From: an uncultured Caryophanales bacterium
Lineage (GTDB): Bacteria > Bacillota_I > Bacilli_A > RFN20 > CAG-826
Assembly: GCA_946630435.1 (NCBI GenBank)
Contig: CAMOYS010000006.1
Span: forward strand, 1-34,441
DNA: 34,441 bases
Direction of reading: 5' to 3'
Shown here: positions 1 to 20,636 of the stretch, one piece after another
Position numbering within the stretch: the first letter of the stretch is position 1
Layout of the letters: every line of letters starts with the position of its first letter
Program-made: the position numbers and the translations under genes
The notes under the pieces: model-generated
What the model was told of the DNA's origin: nothing
The model's input: the letters and a program-made list of their open reading frames with translations, nothing else
Databases searched by the model: none

Positions 1-75
1 CATCATTACCCTTATATCAAAACATATCTAGTACAAAAAGATTTCGACCAAAACAACAGTGCAATGCTATTTTAG
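1..75 (+). CDS. Possible C-terminal tail of an upstream gene truncated by the window edge (HHYPYIKTYLVQKDFDQNNSAMLF*)
   Basis: Frame 1 is open from base 1 to TAG at 73-75 and is followed by a hairpin/poly-T element at 92-148; very short, so tentative. Confidence 0.3.
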   Translation, partial: HHYPYIKTYLVQKDFDQNNSAMLF

Positions 76-91
76 TCGAAGTTGTATATTT

Positions 92-148
92 ATCGACAAT
101 TGGAGGCACAATTGATTGCCAATACACGTACATAAAGGTGCGTGTTTT
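92..148 (+). repeat. Structured repeat copy A, two hairpins followed by T-run (terminator-like)
   Basis: 47/57 identical without gaps to 2680-2736; stems GGCA(105-108)/TGCC(117-120) and ACACGTAC(124-131)/GTGCGTGT(138-145), then TTTTT. Confidence 0.8.
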
Positions 149-1044
149 TATTTATATGAAATACAAAAGTAATCTAAAAATGCTTTAATGGTGTCCTGTC
201 CATCTAAACAAGTATCAATTAAATAGCCTTTTTCTTGATTCCAGTTTTTTAGGCCTCGATAATAGAACATCTTTTTGCTATCCAAGATAATGAACGGAAC
301 AATATTGTTTTTTAAACATTCCTTAAATGCGATTAGTCGCCCAACTCTACCATTGCCATCTTGGAAAGGGTGGATTCGTTCAAATTTGACATGAAACTCC
401 ACTATTTCTTCGAAAGCATGATTTTCTTTTTTATTATAATCATCAAGAAGTTTGTGCATTTCTGAAGCCACTAATCTAGGATTAGTTGTTTCCATGCCTC
501 CAACTTCATTTGGCAACTTTTTATATTCACCAACAGCAAAATAGGGAAGCCTTGAATCATTTGTGTTCGATTTTAGTATTTTATGTAGTTCTTTTATGAA
601 TGGTTCACTAAGTTGATAATTAGCAAAATCAATAACTCGATCGATTGCGGTAAAGTGATTAATTGTTTCAATGATATCATCAACTTTTTTGCTGGTGTTT
701 TTATCTACTCCAATAGTTCTCGTTTCAAAAATATACCTAGTTTCATCGTGAGTTAATTCATTGCCTTCAATATGATTTGAATTATATGTGAGATCAATCA
801 TTAATTTATAATAAATGCCACCTTTAACCTGATTGTTCTTTTCAAAACGAAGCCTTTCTAATAAATAATTTTTGTTTTCTTTTTCATTGCTTCTAATAGG
901 TTTTTTGGTACCTTCAGGAATCATCCAAGTCTTTCCAACTAAAATAGCGCCTTCTACTCTGCCTAAGGCGCAGTAATTGCGGACACTTCTTTCCGATAAA
1001 TTCCATTTAATAGATGCTTCTTTGACTGTTATGAATTTATTCAT
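148..1044 (-). CDS. Fic family protein with N-terminal helix-turn-helix
   Basis: Fic motif HPFQDGNGRVGR; class II inhibitory-type motif SNHIEGN; N-terminal 'ITVKEASIKWNLSERSVRNYCALGRV' resembles a MerR/excisionase-type HTH. Confidence 0.9.
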   Translation of the reverse strand: MNKFITVKEASIKWNLSERSVRNYCALGRVEGAILVGKTWMIPEGTKKPIRSNEKENKNYLLERLRFEKNNQVKGGIYYKLMIDLTYNSNHIEGNELTHDETRYIFETRTIGVDKNTSKKVDDIIETINHFTAIDRVIDFANYQLSEPFIKELHKILKSNTNDSRLPYFAVGEYKKLPNEVGGMETTNPRLVASEMHKLLDDYNKKENHAFEEIVEFHVKFERIHPFQDGNGRVGRLIAFKECLKNNIVPFIILDSKKMFYYRGLKNWNQEKGYLIDTCLDGQDTIKAFLDYFCISYK

Positions 1045-1050
1045 AACAAT

Positions 1051-1078
1051 ATTATATACTTATCGGCAAGAAATGCAA
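1051..1078 (-). promoter_or_regulatory. Predicted fic promoter: TTGCAT-16 bp-TATAAT
   Basis: Reverse strand reads TTGCATttcttgccgataagtaTATAAT immediately upstream of the fic ATG. Confidence 0.6.
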
Positions 1079-1111
1079 TAGTTTATTATTCTTATCTATT
1101 TTTTGCCGATA
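1061..1111. repeat. Inverted repeat TATCGGCAA...TTGCCGATA
   Basis: Perfect 9-bp arms at 1061-1069 and 1103-1111; left arm lies inside the predicted fic promoter spacer. Confidence 0.8.
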
Positions 1112-1207
1112 GTATGTGTGCGGACAATTGGACTTCACTGCCCGTATGTGTATCGACAATTGATCTTAAAACCATGTCCGTGTATCGACATTTAAGGGCA
1201 TCATGAT
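1112..1207 (+). repeat. Three direct repeats with exact 32-bp period (iteron-like)
   Basis: gtatgtgtgcggacaattgga (1112), gtatgtgtatcgacaattgat (1144), gtccgtgtatcgacatttaag (1176). Confidence 0.85.
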
Positions 1208-1238
1208 TGAAATAGTCCCAAGAAAATGGGATTTTTTC

Positions 1239-1266
1239 TTGAAAAATATAGTATTTATATTACAAT
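1239..1266 (+). promoter_or_regulatory. Predicted promoter TTGAAA-16 bp-TACAAT for the ATPase gene
   Basis: Located 48 bp upstream of the ATG at 1314, which is preceded by GGAG at 1301-1304. Confidence 0.5.
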
Positions 1267-1313
1267 ATACTCGAAAGTTAGTAACTTTAAAGTATATAAA
1301 GGAGTATTTAACT

Positions 1314-2672
1314 ATGTTTGTAGGTAGAGAAAAAGAATTAAGGCAACTAAATCGCGCTTTTGAATCAAAAAGCAAAGAATTAGGTGTTATTTATGGAAGA
1401 CGTAGAATCGGAAAAACAAAGCTTATCGATCACTTTGTGAAAGACAAGCCACATTTGTTTTATCAGGCAAAAGAGGATAGTTCATATGGCAATTTACGTT
1501 CATTTTCTTATGAATTAAATAAATTGATGTCTTTGCCTTTAGATTTTGTATATTCAAGTTGGCAAGCTGCTTTAGATGCTTTATCTGGATTTTTTAAAAA
1601 TTCTAGATTTATTTTATGCATCGATGAATATCCATTTATTACTAAGCAAGATAAATCGTTCTCGTCTGTTATCGAAGAATTTTATGATCATTCAAATGAC
1701 AATTTAATGTTATTAATTTCTGGATCCGATGTATCTTTTCTTAAAAAAGAAATAAGAAATAAGAAATCCCCGTTATATAAAAGAAAGACATTTGAGATGA
1801 ATGTACAAAAGCTTCCATTAGAAGAGGCTTTGCAATTCTTTAATGGTGTTGATAAAGAAACAACATGTTCTTTTCTATCACTTATGTCCACTTTCCCTTA
1901 TTACTTATCTGCAATCAATACAAATAATACATTTGAAGATGAAATTAAGAGATTGGTAATAAACGAATATGGTCCATTTTTCAATCTTCCAGAAAACGTT
2001 TTATCAAAATCAAACAAACCAGATATTTATAACGCTATTCTATTCGCAATCGCTAATAGAAAAACAAACATATCAGACATTTCTACATTCATTAAAGAAG
2101 AAACGGGAAAAGTTTCTAAATATTTAACGACTCTATTAGATTCAGAAGTTGTTGGAAAAAGAACTACATTCAATGGAAACAAGAAAAACAATTACTATGT
2201 AATAACAGATCCTCTTCTTAAATTTTGGTATAAAGTTGTATACCCAAATCAAGGCAGAATTATTATCAATCCTGATATGATTTTTGACGAAATAAAAACA
2301 GACTTAAAACAAGCTGTCGAATTTGGATTTGAAGATGTATCTTTACTTTATCTCAATAAACTCAATAGAACCGGAAAACTTGGTCGCGTTTATCCAGAAA
2401 TACAAACATTCAAAGCAGACAATACGAGATTGGGAAGATCGGTAGAAATAGATGGTTTAGCAGAACAAGATGGTCACTTATTAGTTGTTGAATGCAAATA
2501 TAGAAAAGATATATTCACATTAGAAATGTTCGAGCATCTCAAAGAAAGCGATTCTATATTTAATAAGAATTTAATAAGGGAATACTATCTATTTTCTAAA
2601 TCCGGTTTTGATGAAAAAATAAAAGAAACATTCAATGTTAAGCTAATTGATTTAAATACCTTACTCTCATAA
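1314..2672 (+). CDS. AAA ATP-binding protein (archaeal-type ATPase family) with C-terminal DUF234/PD-(D/E)xK-like domain
   Basis: Starts MFVGREKELRQL; Walker A-like GRRRIGKTKL; 'LILCIDEYPF'-type Walker B (FILCIDEYPF); C-terminal EIDGLAEQDGHLLVVECKYR. Start moved from 1203 to 1314 because of RBS GGAG. Confidence 0.85.
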   Translation: MFVGREKELRQLNRAFESKSKELGVIYGRRRIGKTKLIDHFVKDKPHLFYQAKEDSSYGNLRSFSYELNKLMSLPLDFVYSSWQAALDALSGFFKNSRFILCIDEYPFITKQDKSFSSVIEEFYDHSNDNLMLLISGSDVSFLKKEIRNKKSPLYKRKTFEMNVQKLPLEEALQFFNGVDKETTCSFLSLMSTFPYYLSAINTNNTFEDEIKRLVINEYGPFFNLPENVLSKSNKPDIYNAILFAIANRKTNISDISTFIKEETGKVSKYLTTLLDSEVVGKRTTFNGNKKNNYYVITDPLLKFWYKVVYPNQGRIIINPDMIFDEIKTDLKQAVEFGFEDVSLLYLNKLNRTGKLGRVYPEIQTFKADNTRLGRSVEIDGLAEQDGHLLVVECKYRKDIFTLEMFEHLKESDSIFNKNLIREYYLFSKSGFDEKIKETFNVKLIDLNTLLS

Positions 2673-2679
2673 TTCATTA

Positions 2680-2736
2680 ATCGACAATTGGAGACATCAT
2701 TGATTGTCAAGACACATACGAAAAAGTGTGTGTTTT
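2680..2736 (+). repeat. Structured repeat copy B, two hairpins followed by T-run (terminator of ATPase gene)
   Basis: Homologous to 92-148; stems GACA(2693-2696)/TGTC(2705-2708) and ACACATAC(2712-2719)/GTGTGTGT(2726-2733), then TTTT. Confidence 0.8.
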
Positions 2737-2745
2737 CTATATTTT

Positions 2746-4056
2746 TCAATTAGTTTTATTAACCCCATGAGGAATCTTTTTCCACTTTACTTCTTTAACA
2801 AACATCGCTTCTAAATCTAATGGAACTTGTAGCAAGAAGAAGAAAGGCGACAATAAGGCTCCAAAGAATAAAGGCCAGAATGGTTGCTTTCTATATCTTC
2901 CACGAGAACCAATAAGAATAGCTAAAACAGTGATATACGAAGAAATAAAGAACGATGCAATTGTTTTAATAATGCCAAATAAAGCACCAGTATTCCAAGA
3001 CATAAATAAATTCTGATACCAAGTCAGATCAGCGTTCCAATATAAGAATGCTTCCTCTAAAGAAACGCCAAATAAAGGCGATAAAAGTAGTAAGAGATAT
3101 TGCAAAGCAAAAATGAAGAATAATTGAAGAGGAATAAAAGAGTTAAATGTTAAGGCCACAAATAGAGAAACTTTATTCTTTTTAGTCTTATCAAACATAG
3201 CTTTGAAGAATCTAGTGAAGTATTTCTTACTAACTGTGTTTTGTCCTTTCGCCCATCTTAATCTCTGGTTCCACATTGTTTTAAAACGAGTTGGTTGTTC
3301 ATCATAAAACACGGCCTCATCGACATAATGAATTGTGTTACCTTCTAAAGTCTTATCCGCGCTGAATTCGATATCTTCAGTAATACTTGTGTAGTTCCAA
3401 CCATTTTCTAACATGCAAGTTGGAATAATGTAACCACATCCAGTAATACGGGTAGAGACATTGAAGTTTTCTCTTCCCACAAATGTTAATACGCAAGAGG
3501 CAGAGAAGTAATAGGCATACATCGCTGGCATCACACCATCTTTAATATTTAAAGAGTGACGGAAACTAGTTATCGCACACTTCTTATCAAAATGCACAAA
3601 AGCGTCATTCATTTTTGTAAAGTAATTTTTGCTAACGATATTATCCGCGTTCAAAATTAAAAAACCATCATAATCATGAATATTAATATGCTTAAATGCG
3701 TACTGGTAGGCAAAGCCTAAAGTGTTAGCTTTTGGATCGTTAAAGACAATCACATTAGCCCCTAGTTCTTTTGCCACTCTCGCTGTGTTATCTTTACAGT
3801 TATGGGCAATGATAAAGATATCTAATTTATCTTGAGGATAATCAGTGCTTCTAATGCTATTAATAAGTCGAGGGATGACATTTTCTTCATCTTTCGCAGA
3901 AATAATTAAGCCAAAACGACATTTCTCTTCGCTAGAAGGAAACTTCTTACGATGAAGTAAACTACTTACCGCAAAGAAAATGAAATTAAAGAGATAGATG
4001 CTCATTAAGATACTAATTATGAAGAAGATAATGTTAATAATACTAACGTAATTCAT
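2746..4056 (-). CDS. Glycosyltransferase family 2, membrane-associated
   Basis: GT-A-like N-terminus (GLIISAKDEENVIPRLINSI), ILNADNIV (DxD-like), QRLRWAKGQ (QxxRW) and flanking TM helices; start set to MNYVSII. Confidence 0.85.
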   Translation of the reverse strand: MNYVSIINIIFFIISILMSIYLFNFIFFAVSSLLHRKKFPSSEEKCRFGLIISAKDEENVIPRLINSIRSTDYPQDKLDIFIIAHNCKDNTARVAKELGANVIVFNDPKANTLGFAYQYAFKHINIHDYDGFLILNADNIVSKNYFTKMNDAFVHFDKKCAITSFRHSLNIKDGVMPAMYAYYFSASCVLTFVGRENFNVSTRITGCGYIIPTCMLENGWNYTSITEDIEFSADKTLEGNTIHYVDEAVFYDEQPTRFKTMWNQRLRWAKGQNTVSKKYFTRFFKAMFDKTKKNKVSLFVALTFNSFIPLQLFFIFALQYLLLLLSPLFGVSLEEAFLYWNADLTWYQNLFMSWNTGALFGIIKTIASFFISSYITVLAILIGSRGRYRKQPFWPLFFGALLSPFFFLLQVPLDLEAMFVKEVKWKKIPHGVNKTN

Positions 4057-4202
4057 ATGCCTAATAATTGTACTACTAAACATGTCACAGATGTGCCACA
4101 AATATTTGCTTATATAAACAATATAGTGGAAATATTAGATTGTGTGGGTTTTATTTTTTTATAGTTTTTATATTATTCTTTATAGTGATAGAATAGTTTG
4201 GA

Positions 4203-15814: not shown

Positions 15815-15899
15815 GCAGTGATGGCGGAACTGGTAGACGCGTACGTTTGAGGGGCGTATAGGGCAACCTGTGTGAGTTCGATTCTCATTCACTGCACCA
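15815..15899 (+). tRNA. tRNA-Leu(GAG)
   Basis: Acceptor GCAGTGA/TCACTGC, anticodon loop TTGAGGG, encoded CCA, long variable arm. Confidence 0.95.
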
Positions 15900-15914
15900 T
15901 TAATTAAACTAAAT

Positions 15915-15940
15915 TGTTCCTTAATATGAGGAACTTTTTT
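15915..15940 (+). terminator. Terminator after tRNA-Leu
   Basis: GTTCCTtaatatgAGGAACTTTTTT. Confidence 0.85.
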
Positions 15941-15944
15941 ATAT

Positions 15945-15976
15945 TAAAAAGCAGGGACAATTTTTCAAAAATCCCT
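15945..15976 (-). terminator. Terminator of the LemA-like gene
   Basis: Minus strand GCAGGGA...TCCCTGCTTTTTAA. Confidence 0.8.
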
Positions 15977-16000
15977 GCACAAGTCCACTATTTGGGAAAA

Positions 16001-16555
16001 TTAGACCACCAAATCTTTTTCAGTCCACTTGATTAATTTAAAGATAAAACCAGTGGTTGGAATCTTAATCCAATAATTGAATCCAAGTACTTTAGAGTTA
16101 TAGGCACTAACCTTTTGACGATAAGAAGCTTCAACATCATTAAAGAGGTTTAACGCTAATTGAAATTCTTCATCGTTTTTAACTTCTTCATGTAATTCGG
16201 CGAGGTTTAAGATGTTATGACTACCGTGAATAAAAGTTAAAATCTTTTCGTCTCTTTCATCTTTTGATAAGGCTTGGAAGTTATCTACTCTTTCGAGTTT
16301 GTTTATTGATTTAATATCTTCTTGCGCTACTTCAACATTATGCTTAACAAGAATCTTAATAATAGCGATCATAGAATCTCTTCTTTGCGTTAAAAGTAAG
16401 TTAAGTGCATCACTAAGTTTCTTTAAAGAACTACTGAAAATTGAAGAAAACACAAACGCAGTTAAAATAGCGATAAGCCATAAAGCAATAACGCCAAGAA
16501 CGATTGCGAGGAGAACATATCCCCAGTTAGTTTGTAGCCATGTTGTATCGCTCAT
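16001..16555 (-). CDS. LemA-like membrane protein
   Basis: Single N-terminal TM; C-terminal FQLALNLFNDVEASYRQKVSAYNSKVLGFNYWI resembles the LemA FYNDAVxxYN region. Confidence 0.6.
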   Translation of the reverse strand: MSDTTWLQTNWGYVLLAIVLGVIALWLIAILTAFVFSSIFSSSLKKLSDALNLLLTQRRDSMIAIIKILVKHNVEVAQEDIKSINKLERVDNFQALSKDERDEKILTFIHGSHNILNLAELHEEVKNDEEFQLALNLFNDVEASYRQKVSAYNSKVLGFNYWIKIPTTGFIFKLIKWTEKDLVV

Positions 16556-16684
16556 AATCTATAACGCTATAGAATATAGTCACCTTAATTGTGAATTTCA
16601 ATATTTTTCAACTTAACACATAAATGAAAGGGCATTAATTGACAAAGTGATTAACTAATGTTAATGTTTTCACGAGGACAAGTT

Positions 16685-17545
16685 ATGGCAAAAAAGAATA
16701 CAATAATGGCTATCATGTACGACTTTGATAAAACACTTTGTACGACTGATATGCAGAATTATAGCTTTATTCCAGCATTAGGAATGACTCCAGCGGAATT
16801 CTGGGGTGCAACTGGTAAATTCTCAGAAGAAACTGGCTGTGAAAGAATTCTTTCCTATATGTATATGATGATAAAACTATCAAAAGATAAAGGGATTAAA
16901 ATTACGAAAAAATGGCTTAACTCTTTAGGAAAAGATGTTATCTATTTCCCAGGTGTTGAAAAATGGTTTGACCGCATCAATAAATATGGAAAAGAAAGAG
17001 GTGTTAAAGTTGAACACTATCTTTGTTCATCTGGTACAAAAGAAATTATTGAAGGCACCACAATTGCTAAAAAGTTTAGAAGAATTTATGGCTGTGAATT
17101 CCATTATGATAAGGAAACACAAGAACCTGTCTGGCCAAAATTAGCAATTAACTACACTCAAAAGACACAATATTTCTTTAGAATTGCTAAAGGTGTTTAT
17201 GATCAAAACGATGATAAAAACATTAACACCATTACAAAGAAGAAAAGAATTCCATATTCTAACATCGTTTATTTAGGTGATGGAATGACTGATGTCCCAT
17301 GTATGACCTTAGTTAAAGAAAAAGGTGGAAAGGCAATCGCTATTCATCAAAAGAAAGATAAAGATACCATGGTTAGCTTAGTTAAAGAAGGACGTGTTAA
17401 CTTTGCTTTTATCGCTGATTATTCCCCAGGAAGTGACCTCGATAAGACAATGAAGATGATTATCGATGGTATTTCTGTCCAAAATGCTTTAGCAAACAAA
17501 GAAGAAGCATTAATCGAAAAAATCTATAAAACCTATAAAGAATAA
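16685..17545 (+). CDS. HAD family hydrolase
   Basis: IMYDFDKTLCTTD, LCSSGTKEII, VYLGDGMTDVPCM; start reset to MAKKNT. Confidence 0.85.
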   Translation: MAKKNTIMAIMYDFDKTLCTTDMQNYSFIPALGMTPAEFWGATGKFSEETGCERILSYMYMMIKLSKDKGIKITKKWLNSLGKDVIYFPGVEKWFDRINKYGKERGVKVEHYLCSSGTKEIIEGTTIAKKFRRIYGCEFHYDKETQEPVWPKLAINYTQKTQYFFRIAKGVYDQNDDKNINTITKKKRIPYSNIVYLGDGMTDVPCMTLVKEKGGKAIAIHQKKDKDTMVSLVKEGRVNFAFIADYSPGSDLDKTMKMIIDGISVQNALANKEEALIEKIYKTYKE

Positions 17546-17548
17546 TTT

Positions 17549-18241
17549 ATGAAAGTTACCGCAATCATCCTAGTGGGTGGAAGTTCCACTCGCTTTGGAA
17601 GTGATATTCCTAAACAATTTTATAAAGTTAATGGAAAACCTCTATTAGCCTATACTTTAGATTGCTTTGAAAATAATCCTGAAATTAATGATATTGTTAT
17701 CGTTGCTAATCCAACCTATAAGGATAATCTTGAAGAATTATTAAACACCTATCCATATAAAAAGATTTCTCATTTAGTGGAAGGTGGAAAAAACCGTCAA
17801 GAAAGCGCCTTTTTTGGACTTTTAGCGATTGAAAATGAAACTGAAAAGATGGACCGCGTTTTAATTCATGATGGAGTTAGGCCAATCGTTCCTCCTGAAA
17901 TTATTCATGAATTGTTACTCGCTCTTAACGATCACTTTGGAGCGACCGTCGCACTTCCTTCTACCGACACGATGTGCTTAATTGATAAAAATAACGAAGA
18001 AGTTGTGGGAACACTTAACCGTGAAGAAGTTTACGCCATTCAAACTCCACAAGCCTTTGTCTATCAAGCAATTTTAGAAGCTCATAAGCTTTATCAAGGC
18101 AAAAATGTGACCGATGATACCCAGCTTTTAAGTGGGGTTACTCCAATAAAAATTGTCAAAGGAAATAAAAAACTATTAAAAATAACAACAAAAGAGGATA
18201 TTCTATTTCTCGAAGTTTATTTGAAAGAAGCGCAAAAATGA
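17549..18241 (+). CDS. ispD: 2-C-methyl-D-erythritol 4-phosphate cytidylyltransferase
   Basis: AIILVGGSSTRFGSDIPKQFYKVNGKPLLAYTL, VLIHDGVRP, QTPQAF, TDDTQLL. Confidence 0.88.
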   Translation: MKVTAIILVGGSSTRFGSDIPKQFYKVNGKPLLAYTLDCFENNPEINDIVIVANPTYKDNLEELLNTYPYKKISHLVEGGKNRQESAFFGLLAIENETEKMDRVLIHDGVRPIVPPEIIHELLLALNDHFGATVALPSTDTMCLIDKNNEEVVGTLNREEVYAIQTPQAFVYQAILEAHKLYQGKNVTDDTQLLSGVTPIKIVKGNKKLLKITTKEDILFLEVYLKEAQK

Positions 18242-18582
18242 TTGAATACAAAGAAGGAGATATCATTGAAGGAACTGTAATTTCGATAAGAAACTATGGT
18301 GCTATTTTAATATTTGAAAATAATAAAACTGGTTTACTTCATATTTCCGAAGTTACTAACGCTTTCATTCGTCATTTAGACCGCTACTTAACAATTGGTA
18401 AAACCTATCATGTCAAAGTCTTAAGCGTTGAAAATGATGGTTTTATGAAAGTATCAATGTCAAAGATTACTCCAGAAGAAAAAGAAATCTATCGACAAGC
18501 AAACAATAAGAAAAAACCAGTTGATGAAGATAATATAGACTTCACCGCTTTAAAAGAGCATTTAGAAATTTGGACAAAATAA
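18238..18582 (+). CDS. S1 RNA-binding domain protein (YugI/CvfD-like)
   Basis: EGDIIEGTVISIRNYGAILIFENNKTGLLHISEVTNAFI; ATGA overlap with ispD. Confidence 0.88.
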   Translation: MIEYKEGDIIEGTVISIRNYGAILIFENNKTGLLHISEVTNAFIRHLDRYLTIGKTYHVKVLSVENDGFMKVSMSKITPEEKEIYRQANNKKKPVDEDNIDFTALKEHLEIWTK

Positions 18583-18597
18583 AGGAGACTAAAATAT

Positions 18598-19878
18598 ATG
18601 CTTACTTTAAATTTTGAACACTTAATTGACAAAGTTGATTTTGCTAAATATCAAAGCAAAGTTAATGCAATCGATGAGATGATTGAAAAAAGAACTGGCC
18701 CAGGTAATGACTTCCTAGGTTGGTTACGTTATCCAGAAACTTACGATAAAGAAGAACTAGAAGAAATTATTAAATCCGCGGCATTTGTGCGAGAAAATTT
18801 TGAAGTTTTAGTTGTCTGTGGTATCGGTGGAAGTTACCTCGGTGCAAGAGCAGGAATTGAAGCTTTAAAAGGTTTACATCCAAGAGATAAAATCGAAATT
18901 ATCTTCTTAGGTCAAACATTCTCTAGTGACTATATCTATGAAACACTTGAATATGTTAAAGATAAGAAATTCGCGATTAATGTTATCTCAAAAAGTGGAA
19001 CCACCACTGAAACCGCAATCTCATTTAGATTATTAAAAGAATTACTCGAATCAAAAGTTGGTAAAGAAGAAGCTAGAAAAGCTATCTTTGCCACTACCGA
19101 TAAAGAAAAAGGTGCTTTAAAAACATTATCCACTCAAGAAGGATACAAGACTTTCGTTCTTCCAGGTGATGTCGGTGGACGTTTTAGTGTCTTTACTGCA
19201 GTTGGTTTATTCCCAATGGCAGTTGCTGGTATTGATGTTAGAAAAGTTCTTGAAGGTGCTCACGCTTCTATGGAAGAAAATAGAGGAAGTGATTTAGCTA
19301 AAAACAAAGCTTATCAATATGCGATTGTGAGAGATACTTTATTAAGAAAAGGCTATCCAGTTGAAATGTTTGTCACTTATGAACCAAGACTTGTTCAATT
19401 AGGTGAATGGTTCAAACAATTATTTGGAGAAAGTGAAGGCAAAGAACATAAAGGTTTACTTCCAGATAGTGCTACCTTCTCTACTGATCTCCACTCCTTA
19501 GGACAATTCATCCAAGATGGTTCACCAGTGTTATTTGAAACTATCTTATTTGTTAATAAACCAAGACACGAAGTAGTTATTCCAGAAGATAAAGAAAACC
19601 TTGATGGTTTAAATTATTTAGCTGGTAAGAACTTAGCTTTCGTTAACGAAAAAGCTTATATTGGTACACTTGCCGCTCACGAAGAAACTGGTCGTGTTCC
19701 AAATATGCTTCTTAACTTAGACAAATTAGATGAATTCGAACTTGGTTATCTTCTTTACTTCTTTATGAAGACCTGTGCGATGAGTGGTTATTTACTCGAA
19801 GTAAATCCATTCAATCAACCTGGTGTCGAAGTTTATAAAAAGAATATGTTCCACCTTTTAGGTAAAAAAGGTTATTAA
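18598..19878 (+). CDS. pgi: Glucose-6-phosphate isomerase
   Basis: VVCGIGGSYLGARAGIEAL, VISKSGTTTETAISFR, GGRFSVFTAVGLFP. Confidence 0.97.
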   Translation: MLTLNFEHLIDKVDFAKYQSKVNAIDEMIEKRTGPGNDFLGWLRYPETYDKEELEEIIKSAAFVRENFEVLVVCGIGGSYLGARAGIEALKGLHPRDKIEIIFLGQTFSSDYIYETLEYVKDKKFAINVISKSGTTTETAISFRLLKELLESKVGKEEARKAIFATTDKEKGALKTLSTQEGYKTFVLPGDVGGRFSVFTAVGLFPMAVAGIDVRKVLEGAHASMEENRGSDLAKNKAYQYAIVRDTLLRKGYPVEMFVTYEPRLVQLGEWFKQLFGESEGKEHKGLLPDSATFSTDLHSLGQFIQDGSPVLFETILFVNKPRHEVVIPEDKENLDGLNYLAGKNLAFVNEKAYIGTLAAHEETGRVPNMLLNLDKLDEFELGYLLYFFMKTCAMSGYLLEVNPFNQPGVEVYKKNMFHLLGKKGY

Positions 19879-19968
19879 TTTGCTATAAAACTTTTCAAAA
19901 ACTAAGTTGACTATATCAAATAATTAATGATATATTTATTAGGCACGCTTAGAGGACGTGTATTGAGC

Positions 19969-20044
19969 GGATGTTTAGCTCAGTTGGGAGAGCATCGCCT
20001 TTACACGGCGGGGGTCAGGGGTTCGAGCCCCTTAACATCCACCA
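19969..20044 (+). tRNA. tRNA-Val(TAC)
   Basis: GGATGTT/AACATCC acceptor, loop TTTACAC, encoded CCA. Confidence 0.95.
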
Positions 20045-20061
20045 TTCTCTAGGGTCCAAGT

Positions 20062-20145
20062 GGAGGAATAGCGAAGTGGCCAAACGCGGCTGACTGTAAA
20101 TCAGTTCCTTAGGGTTCGGTAGTTCAAATCTACCTTCCTCCACCA
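20062..20145 (+). tRNA. tRNA-Tyr(GTA)
   Basis: GGAGGAA/TTCCTCC acceptor, loop CTGTAAA, long variable arm, CCA. Confidence 0.95.
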
Positions 20146-20150
20146 CTCCT

Positions 20151-20226
20151 TGGGGTGTAGCCAAGCGGTAAGGCATCAGACTTTGACTCTGACATTTCGC
20201 TGGTCCGATCCCAGCCACCCCAACCA
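20151..20226 (+). tRNA. tRNA-Gln(TTG)
   Basis: TGGGGTG/CACCCCA acceptor, loop CTTTGAC, CCA. Confidence 0.94.
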
Positions 20227-20234
20227 GATAAATA

Positions 20235-20262
20235 AGAAATCTCACTGAGAGATTTTTTTCTT
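20235..20262 (+). terminator. Terminator after first tRNA group
   Basis: AAATCTCactGAGAGATTTTTTTC. Confidence 0.8.
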
Positions 20263-20369
20263 TTATATAAATATAAATCAATAAATTTAATAAAATTTCA
20301 AAAAAGTATGGATAATAAAATTATAATGTGCAATAATATCAAAGCGATTTTTAGAAATCGCAACGGTAT

Positions 20370-20446
20370 CTCCCGTTAGCTCAGTTGGCTAGAGCACTCG
20401 ACTTTTAATCAAGGGGTCGGACGTTCAAATCGTCTACGGGAGACCA
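20370..20446 (+). tRNA. tRNA-Lys(TTT)
   Basis: CTCCCGT/ACGGGAG acceptor, loop CTTTTAA, CCA; anticodon stem has one C-A mismatch. Confidence 0.93.
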
Positions 20447-20449
20447 CTT

Positions 20450-20537
20450 GCCCAGGTGGCGAAATTGGTAGACGCAAGGGACTTAAAATCCCTCGAGTGC
20501 ATAACTCATACCGGTTCAACTCCGGTCCTGGGCACCA
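20450..20537 (+). tRNA. tRNA-Leu(TAA)
   Basis: GCCCAGG/CCTGGGC acceptor, AGGGA-CTTAAAA-TCCCT, CCA. Confidence 0.95.
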
Positions 20538-20561
20538 TCAATACGCCACTTTTTAATTTAT

Positions 20562-20636
20562 TGGGGCGTAGCCAAGCGGTAAGGCAGCGGGCTCTGAACT
20601 CGCCATTCACTGGTCCGAATCCAGTCGCCCCAGCCA
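20562..20636 (+). tRNA. tRNA-Gln(CTG)
   Basis: TGGGGCG/CGCCCCA acceptor, anticodon loop CTCTGAA, CCA. Confidence 0.9.

Follow-up and report, generated by a model that had tools for sequence, protein, structure and literature searches.

Genes and half-sites at the left end of the window

The window analyzed here is a stretch of 34,441 nucleotides (nt) from an uncultured Caryophanales bacterium (GenBank assembly GCA_946630435.1, contig CAMOYS010000006.1). Near its left end lies a divergent gene pair, coding for a Fic protein of 298 amino acids (aa) on the minus strand (148..1044) and an AAA ATPase of 452 aa on the plus strand (1314..2672), between two direct repeats. A preliminary description had presented this pair as a two-gene island; its divergent arrangement is confirmed, and the bounding repeats, reported as 57 nt with 82% identity, extend to 61 nt at that same identity (88-148 and 2676-2736, spacing 2588). 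The related iterons that it placed in the middle of the unit were also found, at 1112 and 1144, and the 21-nt iterons of the window are located at 84-104, 1112-1132, 1144-1164 and 2672-2692. In the genome of the window, which is 79% complete, the 61-nt repeat is present in these two copies only. The evidence set out below indicates that the island is probably part of an array of small integrative cassettes at a tRNA-Ser 3' end, recombined probably by a pair of large serine recombinases.

Each repeat is composite, consisting of an R half (GTATGTGTATCGACAATTGGAGA), a 2-bp core CA and an L half (TCATTGATTGTCAAGACACGTACGAAAAAGTGCGTGTTTTTT). The R half often has a second iteron 32 bp upstream; the L half opens with a partial, inverted copy of the iteron and closes with a terminator, the hairpins contained in the L halves being genuine terminators. 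Aligned sites give an R-CA-L consensus with ungapped two-fold symmetry at 16/23 positions; in the window the symmetry about CA is 13/23 at 107 and 11/23 at 2695. The R-half matrix produced a single match of at least 14 bits in 1.18 Mb of shuffled sequence, both strands included, against 20-41 bits for the real sites, and the same sites recur beside tRNA-Ser in many genomes; hence the repeats are more than chance. The site models were derived partly from the same loci, and the junction-pattern searches and the shuffles guard against circularity. Since each repeat is made of two half-sites around a CA core, the unit is resolved into two cassettes rather than one. With cores at 107-108, 1199-1200 and 2695-2696, it is a tandem of cassette B, carrying the Fic, and cassette C, carrying the DUF234 ATPase, neither with a recombinase, preceded by the edge of a cassette A.

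Cassette A is represented by its promoter-side end (1..83, plus strand), which includes the inverted repeat CGACcAAAA...TTTTaGTCG at about 45-79, and by an R half-site with its core CA (84..108, plus strand; 36.1 bits with the R matrix). Positions 1-103 are 94% identical to a segment directly upstream of a DUF4143 ATPase (G001:C36:8609-8711) and the leader model matches at 43-104, and the AAA_14/DUF4143 ATPase gene of this cassette is expected just beyond the left contig end, on the minus strand. Cassette B starts with an L half-site and its terminator hairpin (109..157, plus strand; L-end model match at 111-154, E=3e-9) and, past fic, ends in an R end (1112..1200, plus strand) whose iterons at 1112, 1144 and 1176 follow a 32-bp period, with R matches at 1144-1169 and 1176-1201. 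Upstream of fic the fold gives a long inverted repeat, TATCGGCAA...TTGCCGATA (1061..1113, plus strand), which is kept at that place in genomes G010 and G199 and is likely an operator or a hairpin. Cassette C starts with a variant L half-site with the terminator hairpin AGTCCCAAGAAAATGGGATTTTTTC (1201..1242, plus strand), of which a near-identical copy directly follows the CCA of a tRNA-Ser in G200 (L235), and it ends after the ATPase gene in an R half-site with core CA (2672..2696, plus strand; 30.5 bits). The L half-site of the next unit follows, again with a terminator (2697..2745, plus strand; L-end model 2696-2745, E=2e-14; hairpin z=-3.55), and it may be a remnant or the start of a cassette D. 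Just upstream of the ATPase gene, at 1265-1304, a palindrome-like sequence, ATACTCGAAAGTTAGTAACTTTAAAGTAT, forms a probable operator; it is kept in gene-less cassette remnants (G003, G087).

The Fic protein (Pfam Fic, 4.9e-19) has a complete active-site motif, HPFQDGNGRVGR, that fits HxFx(D/E)GNGRxxR, and it matches the Fic chains 4x2e/4x2c of the PDB at about 1e-25 and the PADLOC model PDC-S04 at 5.7e-104. Its N-terminal SNHIEG fits the inhibitory motif (S/T)xxxE(G/N). Such an N-terminal inhibitory motif characterizes the self-inhibited Fic proteins of class II, to which this one belongs by its sequence; it is therefore unlikely to act as a free toxin and is most likely a self-inhibited AMP-transferase. 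Translation of the ATPase is assigned to the start at 1314, and not to the in-frame ATG at 1203, on the basis of an AAGGAG at about 1299-1304 and of the homologues. The protein matches ATPase_2 (7e-17) and DUF234 (1.5e-9) in Pfam and PDC-S27 in PADLOC (1.1e-50), and its Walker A, DE pair, E340, D380 and K395 are invariant across 16 homologues. These residues are compatible with an AAA plus PD-(D/E)xK architecture, so that the nuclease-like C-terminus of the preliminary description holds as far as sequence compatibility goes; by its domains and residues the protein falls among the PDC-S27/DUF234 ATPases and is most likely a P-loop NTPase with a nuclease-like domain.

The Fic and the ATPase could also be read as one two-gene functional system moving as a unit, and the segment 91-2682, nearly repeat to repeat, is in fact found in G199, from another genus, with 86.4% nt identity and the same order and orientation. 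However, R and L halves separate the two genes in the window, the Fic cassette occurs alone between R and L in G010, where it ends in one iteron at the same place as cassette B, and the ATPase cassette occurs alone at tRNA-Ser in G200 and G191. Moreover, only one of the seven genomes with an ATPase at 92-94% aa identity, some of them cut by contig ends, has an adjacent Fic. Cassettes B and C are thus separate units, and a two-gene system is unlikely; what remains of the proposed island is its mobile or selfish type, not its unity. The preliminary description had also named findings that would speak against an island, repeats that are ordinary terminators beside unrelated genes and genes that do not co-occur in relatives. 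This expectation is partly borne out, yet what it brings to light is the cassette system and not a refutation.

ATPase copies at 92-94% aa identity were found in five other genera from two families, whereas none at this similarity was found in the other 23 genomes of the window's own genus. At the nt level the copies in other genera and in the second family are 86-89% identical, to be compared with 63-68% for the housekeeping gene rluD between comparable genera. By this comparison the cassettes have evidently been transferred across genera. The 12 distant ATPase homologues (<40% aa identity) have no such sites.

Anchoring at tRNA-Ser and precise insertion

A DNA search with window positions 1-2800 against 96 relatives returned many short matches that did not extend beyond the repeats; they came from other genera and frequently lay at contig ends. 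Annotation with ARAGORN located tRNA-Ser genes (GGA, GCT, TGA) directly before L halves in relatives, and 36 of 58 distinct L ends stand directly after a tRNA-Ser of several isoacceptors, the core CA being the end of the encoded CCA. All the anchored cases are at tRNA-Ser. In the relatives the R halves close the cargo and the displaced terminator then follows. The junction pattern CTCCGCCAYSATTGATTGT, allowing one mismatch at most, occurs in 38/279 genomes of the order, distributed over 14 genera, and the reversed-pattern control gave 0. A related exact pattern, searched across 84,980 species, was found at 30 places, 28 of them in metagenome-assembled genomes (MAGs) named Bacilli, Bacillales or Erysipelotrichaceae, mostly from rumen or gut, or in MAGs with contigs matching this order; among the viral contigs searched with attP and attL patterns there were 0 matches.

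The repeats might be supposed to be mere conserved terminators of tRNA-Ser and other genes together with operator iterons, with the genes exchanged at a variable locus through ordinary homologous recombination. Real terminator hairpins are present in the L halves, and some L halves have no detectable R partner, as this supposition would have it. Nevertheless, tRNA-Ser genes of the genus that lack L are followed by unrelated terminators, hence L is not simply the inherited terminator of the tRNA. The near symmetry of the site about CA, and the recurrence of R halves after unrelated cargo and, among recombinase loci, beside one clade, also stand against mere terminators, and so do the breakpoints found at a locus common to four species. 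There the order is rluD - tRNA-Ser(gga) - X - symporter, with symporters 94-96% identical, and X is a DUF4143 ATPase in G001, another ATPase plus remnants in G003, a lipoprotein and a Fic in G004 and a Fic in G023. In all four species the sequences break on the left exactly where the tRNA ends, CCTCCGCC, and on the right at one identical base before the displaced terminator (C/T)ATTATKAATAAGAYRC. Elsewhere the terminators close downstream of R halves differ from one another, as expected for cassettes inserted between a tRNA and its terminator.

Real empty sites were found by searching for reconstructed sites. In G234 tRNA-Ser(gga) is followed by CA and CGATTGAAAAAATCCCTG, and in G230, of the same genus, a recombinase element ends in R-CA-CGATTGAAAAAATCCCTG, the flanks of both being 96-98% identical over 1.2 kb; the sequence CGATTGAAAAAATCCC follows CA in the empty and in the filled site. 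A second, weaker pair of empty and filled sites is given by G135 and G203. The CA is common to attL, attR and the empty sites, and the R end is unrelated to the tRNA sequence; no fragment of the tRNA gene is duplicated at the far end, where CA alone is shared. Comparison of the two sites confirms that the insertion is precise. It makes the terminators-only account unlikely and, taken with the census of unoccupied tRNA-Ser genes, led to its rejection; we regard it as the least probable of the alternatives considered, with very little chance of being correct.

The recombinase pair and the proposed exchange

Larger elements with the same ends encode two paired serine recombinases, one of 566 aa and one of 550 aa, which form the clade that stands out among the serine recombinases of the order; their domains are Resolvase, Recombinase and zinc ribbon (PF00239 + PF07508 + PF13408). 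CcrB/CcrC are their best NCBIfam models, with scores of 121 and 113 bits that lie far under the cut-off of 900. In each of the seven readable copies the 550-aa gene is followed by an R site, which lies 66-100 bp away in six copies and 574 bp away in the seventh, while no R site was found beside other recombinase clades in the about 24 loci examined. One of these elements, in G228, extends about 23 kb from tRNA-Ser-L to R and has the recombinase pair at its end; between genera the pair is 94-96% identical in nt. The 2-bp core, the near-symmetric attP and the empty site are those of large-serine-recombinase elements. A cognate recombinase beside the att site is found in the larger relatives, and the cassettes of the window carry none. 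Other pairs of large serine recombinases were seen near tRNA-Trp, tRNA-Met, tRNA-His and tRNA-Glu genes, no more than a few hundred bases away (L211, L213, L229, L230, L231, L233), which suggests a wider class of tRNA-associated pairs.

At tRNA genes the usual enzyme would be a tyrosine recombinase such as XerC/D or a phage integrase, and the 3' ends of tRNA genes are classic targets of tyrosine integrases (PMC4383910). A survey with PF00589 detected one tyrosine recombinase or more in every genome of the genus, and two or more in nearly all, and G007 has an ordinary tyrosine-integrase element at the 3' end of a tRNA-Ser(gct) (G007:C6, L111 6475-7720). The ends of that element, however, are unrelated to R and L, a crude model detected no tyrosine recombinase in the cassette loci examined, the enzyme beside R is the serine recombinase pair, and the shared core is of 2 bp, as for serine integrases. 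A tyrosine recombinase was therefore discarded as the cognate enzyme, and mobilization by one is improbable.

In the cassette array that we favour, each cassette is composed of an L half-site with its terminator, the cargo and an R half-site with iterons of TATCGACAATTGGAGA. R and L meet around CA, which corresponds in the chromosome to the end of the CCA encoded by tRNA-Ser, and consequently integration leaves the tRNA intact while the L end supplies a new terminator. The serine recombinase pair of the larger elements probably recombines these sites. The cassettes of the window would depend on such a recombinase acting in trans, in the way suggested for pseudo-SCC elements (PMC2900268), or would hitch-hike with a neighbour. 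A circular intermediate is presumed, and the tRNA-Ser of the window would lie at its missing left end.

Several observations weigh against this scheme. All the loci are contigs of MAGs, and no recombination was observed. The tRNA-Ser of the window array was not found beside it, the contig ending inside the array and the genome being 79% complete, and no recombinase of this clade was found in that same incomplete genome. Closed L-to-R segments under 12 kb number only 22, including a few nested ones. Cassette C has an L half that agrees poorly with the symmetry (6/23), and L halves vary elsewhere too, which makes it necessary to suppose that half-sites are exchanged or decay. In G223 the elements to which the R sites belong carry several recombinases, and a serine recombinase clade of 606 aa was found beside L or R|L in G241 (L156 1169-5405) and G174 (L155 120-970); for these reasons the identity of the acting enzyme is uncertain. 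With respect to function, deletion of a PDC-S04 gene in another host revealed no defence (PMC12409345).

The 606-aa clade, represented in G241, was the first candidate and was set aside, as its relative in G199 lacks R/L ends and the 550/566-aa pair is always beside R; it is possible that both clades use the sites. In G223 two recombinase-bearing elements stand in tandem at one tRNA-Ser (L154 104-13870); they hold several genes for serine recombinases, of which one or more are interrupted by a stop codon.

Cargo and relation to known systems

In the 22 closed segments 32 genes are directed towards the anchor and 6 away from it, and the DUF234 ATPases seen are oriented away. PADLOC assigns the Fic to PDC-S04, the DUF234 ATPase to PDC-S27 and the DUF4143 ATPases to PDC-S01, and it relates neighbouring cargo to AbiEi and RmrA. 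The three PDC models are phage-defence candidates, mostly untested, and PDC-S01 ranks with the commonest candidates of rumen genomes (PMC13356809). Most of the cassette cargo looks like phage-defence genes and most likely would provide phage defence or addiction. Of the defence or toxin-type function put forward in the preliminary description, the defence type is plausible from the PDC-S04 and PDC-S27 matches, while a free toxin is disfavoured by the SNHIEG motif of the Fic. Not all cargo is defence, because cassettes of the same kind carry metabolic genes: a rhamnose-utilisation-type operon of about 15 kb, with isomerase, kinase, aldolase, transporter and regulator, lies between tRNA-Ser(gct)-L and R (G009:C5, L082 1932-17148), and another stands beside an R|L site (G007:C3, L024 17824-19998).

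A recurrent cassette of 4-5 genes, present in at least four genomes (L041 5958-9341, L034 7292-10577, L038 6939-10368, L081 275-3947), encodes a helix-turn-helix (HTH)-IrrE protein that matches RmrA, a DUF4417 protein and three small unknown proteins, and is possibly an undescribed defence or toxin-antitoxin system. Likewise, in G230:C3 (L096 240-19499) a tRNA-Ser L end is followed by a long succession of large genes, coding for up to 1503 aa and with no R end in the stretch examined, which is possibly a multi-gene defence system. Downstream of cassette C in the window, a glycosyltransferase 2 gene (2746..4101, minus strand) either belongs to the flanking chromosome or is carried by one more unit; in G233 (L239) a similar gene follows the same R|L site downstream of the ATPase. 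Seven tRNA genes of the window (Leu, Val, Tyr, Gln, Lys, Leu, Gln; 15815-20636) are ordinary and none is tRNA-Ser.

The closest known kind is that of the staphylococcal cassette chromosome (SCC) and pseudo-SCC arrays, with CcrA/CcrB. In both, large serine recombinases occur as a pair, the att sites form direct repeats where a housekeeping gene has its 3' end, and elements stand in tandem, recombinase-less ones depending on the enzyme of a neighbour (PMC10581047, PMC2900268). The target is new, tRNA-Ser instead of rlmH or rimL, and so is the size, cassettes of only 1-2 kb with one gene; the core is CA instead of GA, the L end holds a terminator, and the recombinases are far below the Ccr cut-offs (113-121 versus 900 bits). 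On the features tested, the ccr cut-off and insertion at the rlmH 3' end, the elements do not belong to SCC. Integrons also have arrays of small, mostly single-gene, recombinase-less cassettes with near-constant orientation and repeated sites; here, however, no IntI was seen with the crude tyrosine recombinase model (the attC consensus was not searched), the sites are double-stranded, near-symmetric and of serine type instead of folded attC, there are several tRNA-Ser anchors per genome, and the genes face the anchor and can have their own promoters. In cis-mobilizable elements (CIMEs) and the accretion of derivatives of integrative conjugative or mobilizable elements (ICEs, IMEs), att sites are likewise kept in tandem at a gene end with integration genes lost or lacking (PMC5704250), but CIMEs are described as decayed ICEs/IMEs, whereas these units are compact, carry recurrent defence-type cargo and are intact in several genera. 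Islander-type islands integrate at the 3' end of tRNA genes too, but with tyrosine integrases and a duplicated tRNA fragment, where here CA alone is shared. The matches to PDC-S04, PDC-S27 and PDC-S01 are strong, and their carriage on recombinase-type cassettes is a new context. No description of tRNA-Ser serine-recombinase cassettes was found in the literature covered, most subscription journals and preprints being outside that coverage.

It is conceivable, though somewhat doubtful, that the arrays are a serine-recombinase cassette platform, an integron analogue of independent origin in which a dedicated pair exchanges half-sites at the CCA ends of tRNA-Ser and thereby redistributes cassettes of one gene, mainly anti-phage, among arrays and genera. 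According to PMC4383910, tRNA genes are not a known target of serine recombinases; if true, the present scheme would give serine recombinases that use tRNA genes as target and, if confirmed, would contradict the working rule by which only tyrosine integrases target tRNA genes. Search tools based on duplicated tRNA fragments would miss such islands, because only CA is shared. The recombinase pair could moreover serve as a site-specific integration tool for a widely present gene end. For the uncultured Bacilli of the rumen, tRNA-Ser CCA plus L at one end and R at the other offer a searchable signature of a mobile cassette family, and the exchange proposed here would supply a mechanism for the spread of the single-gene defence candidates PDC-S01, S04 and S27.

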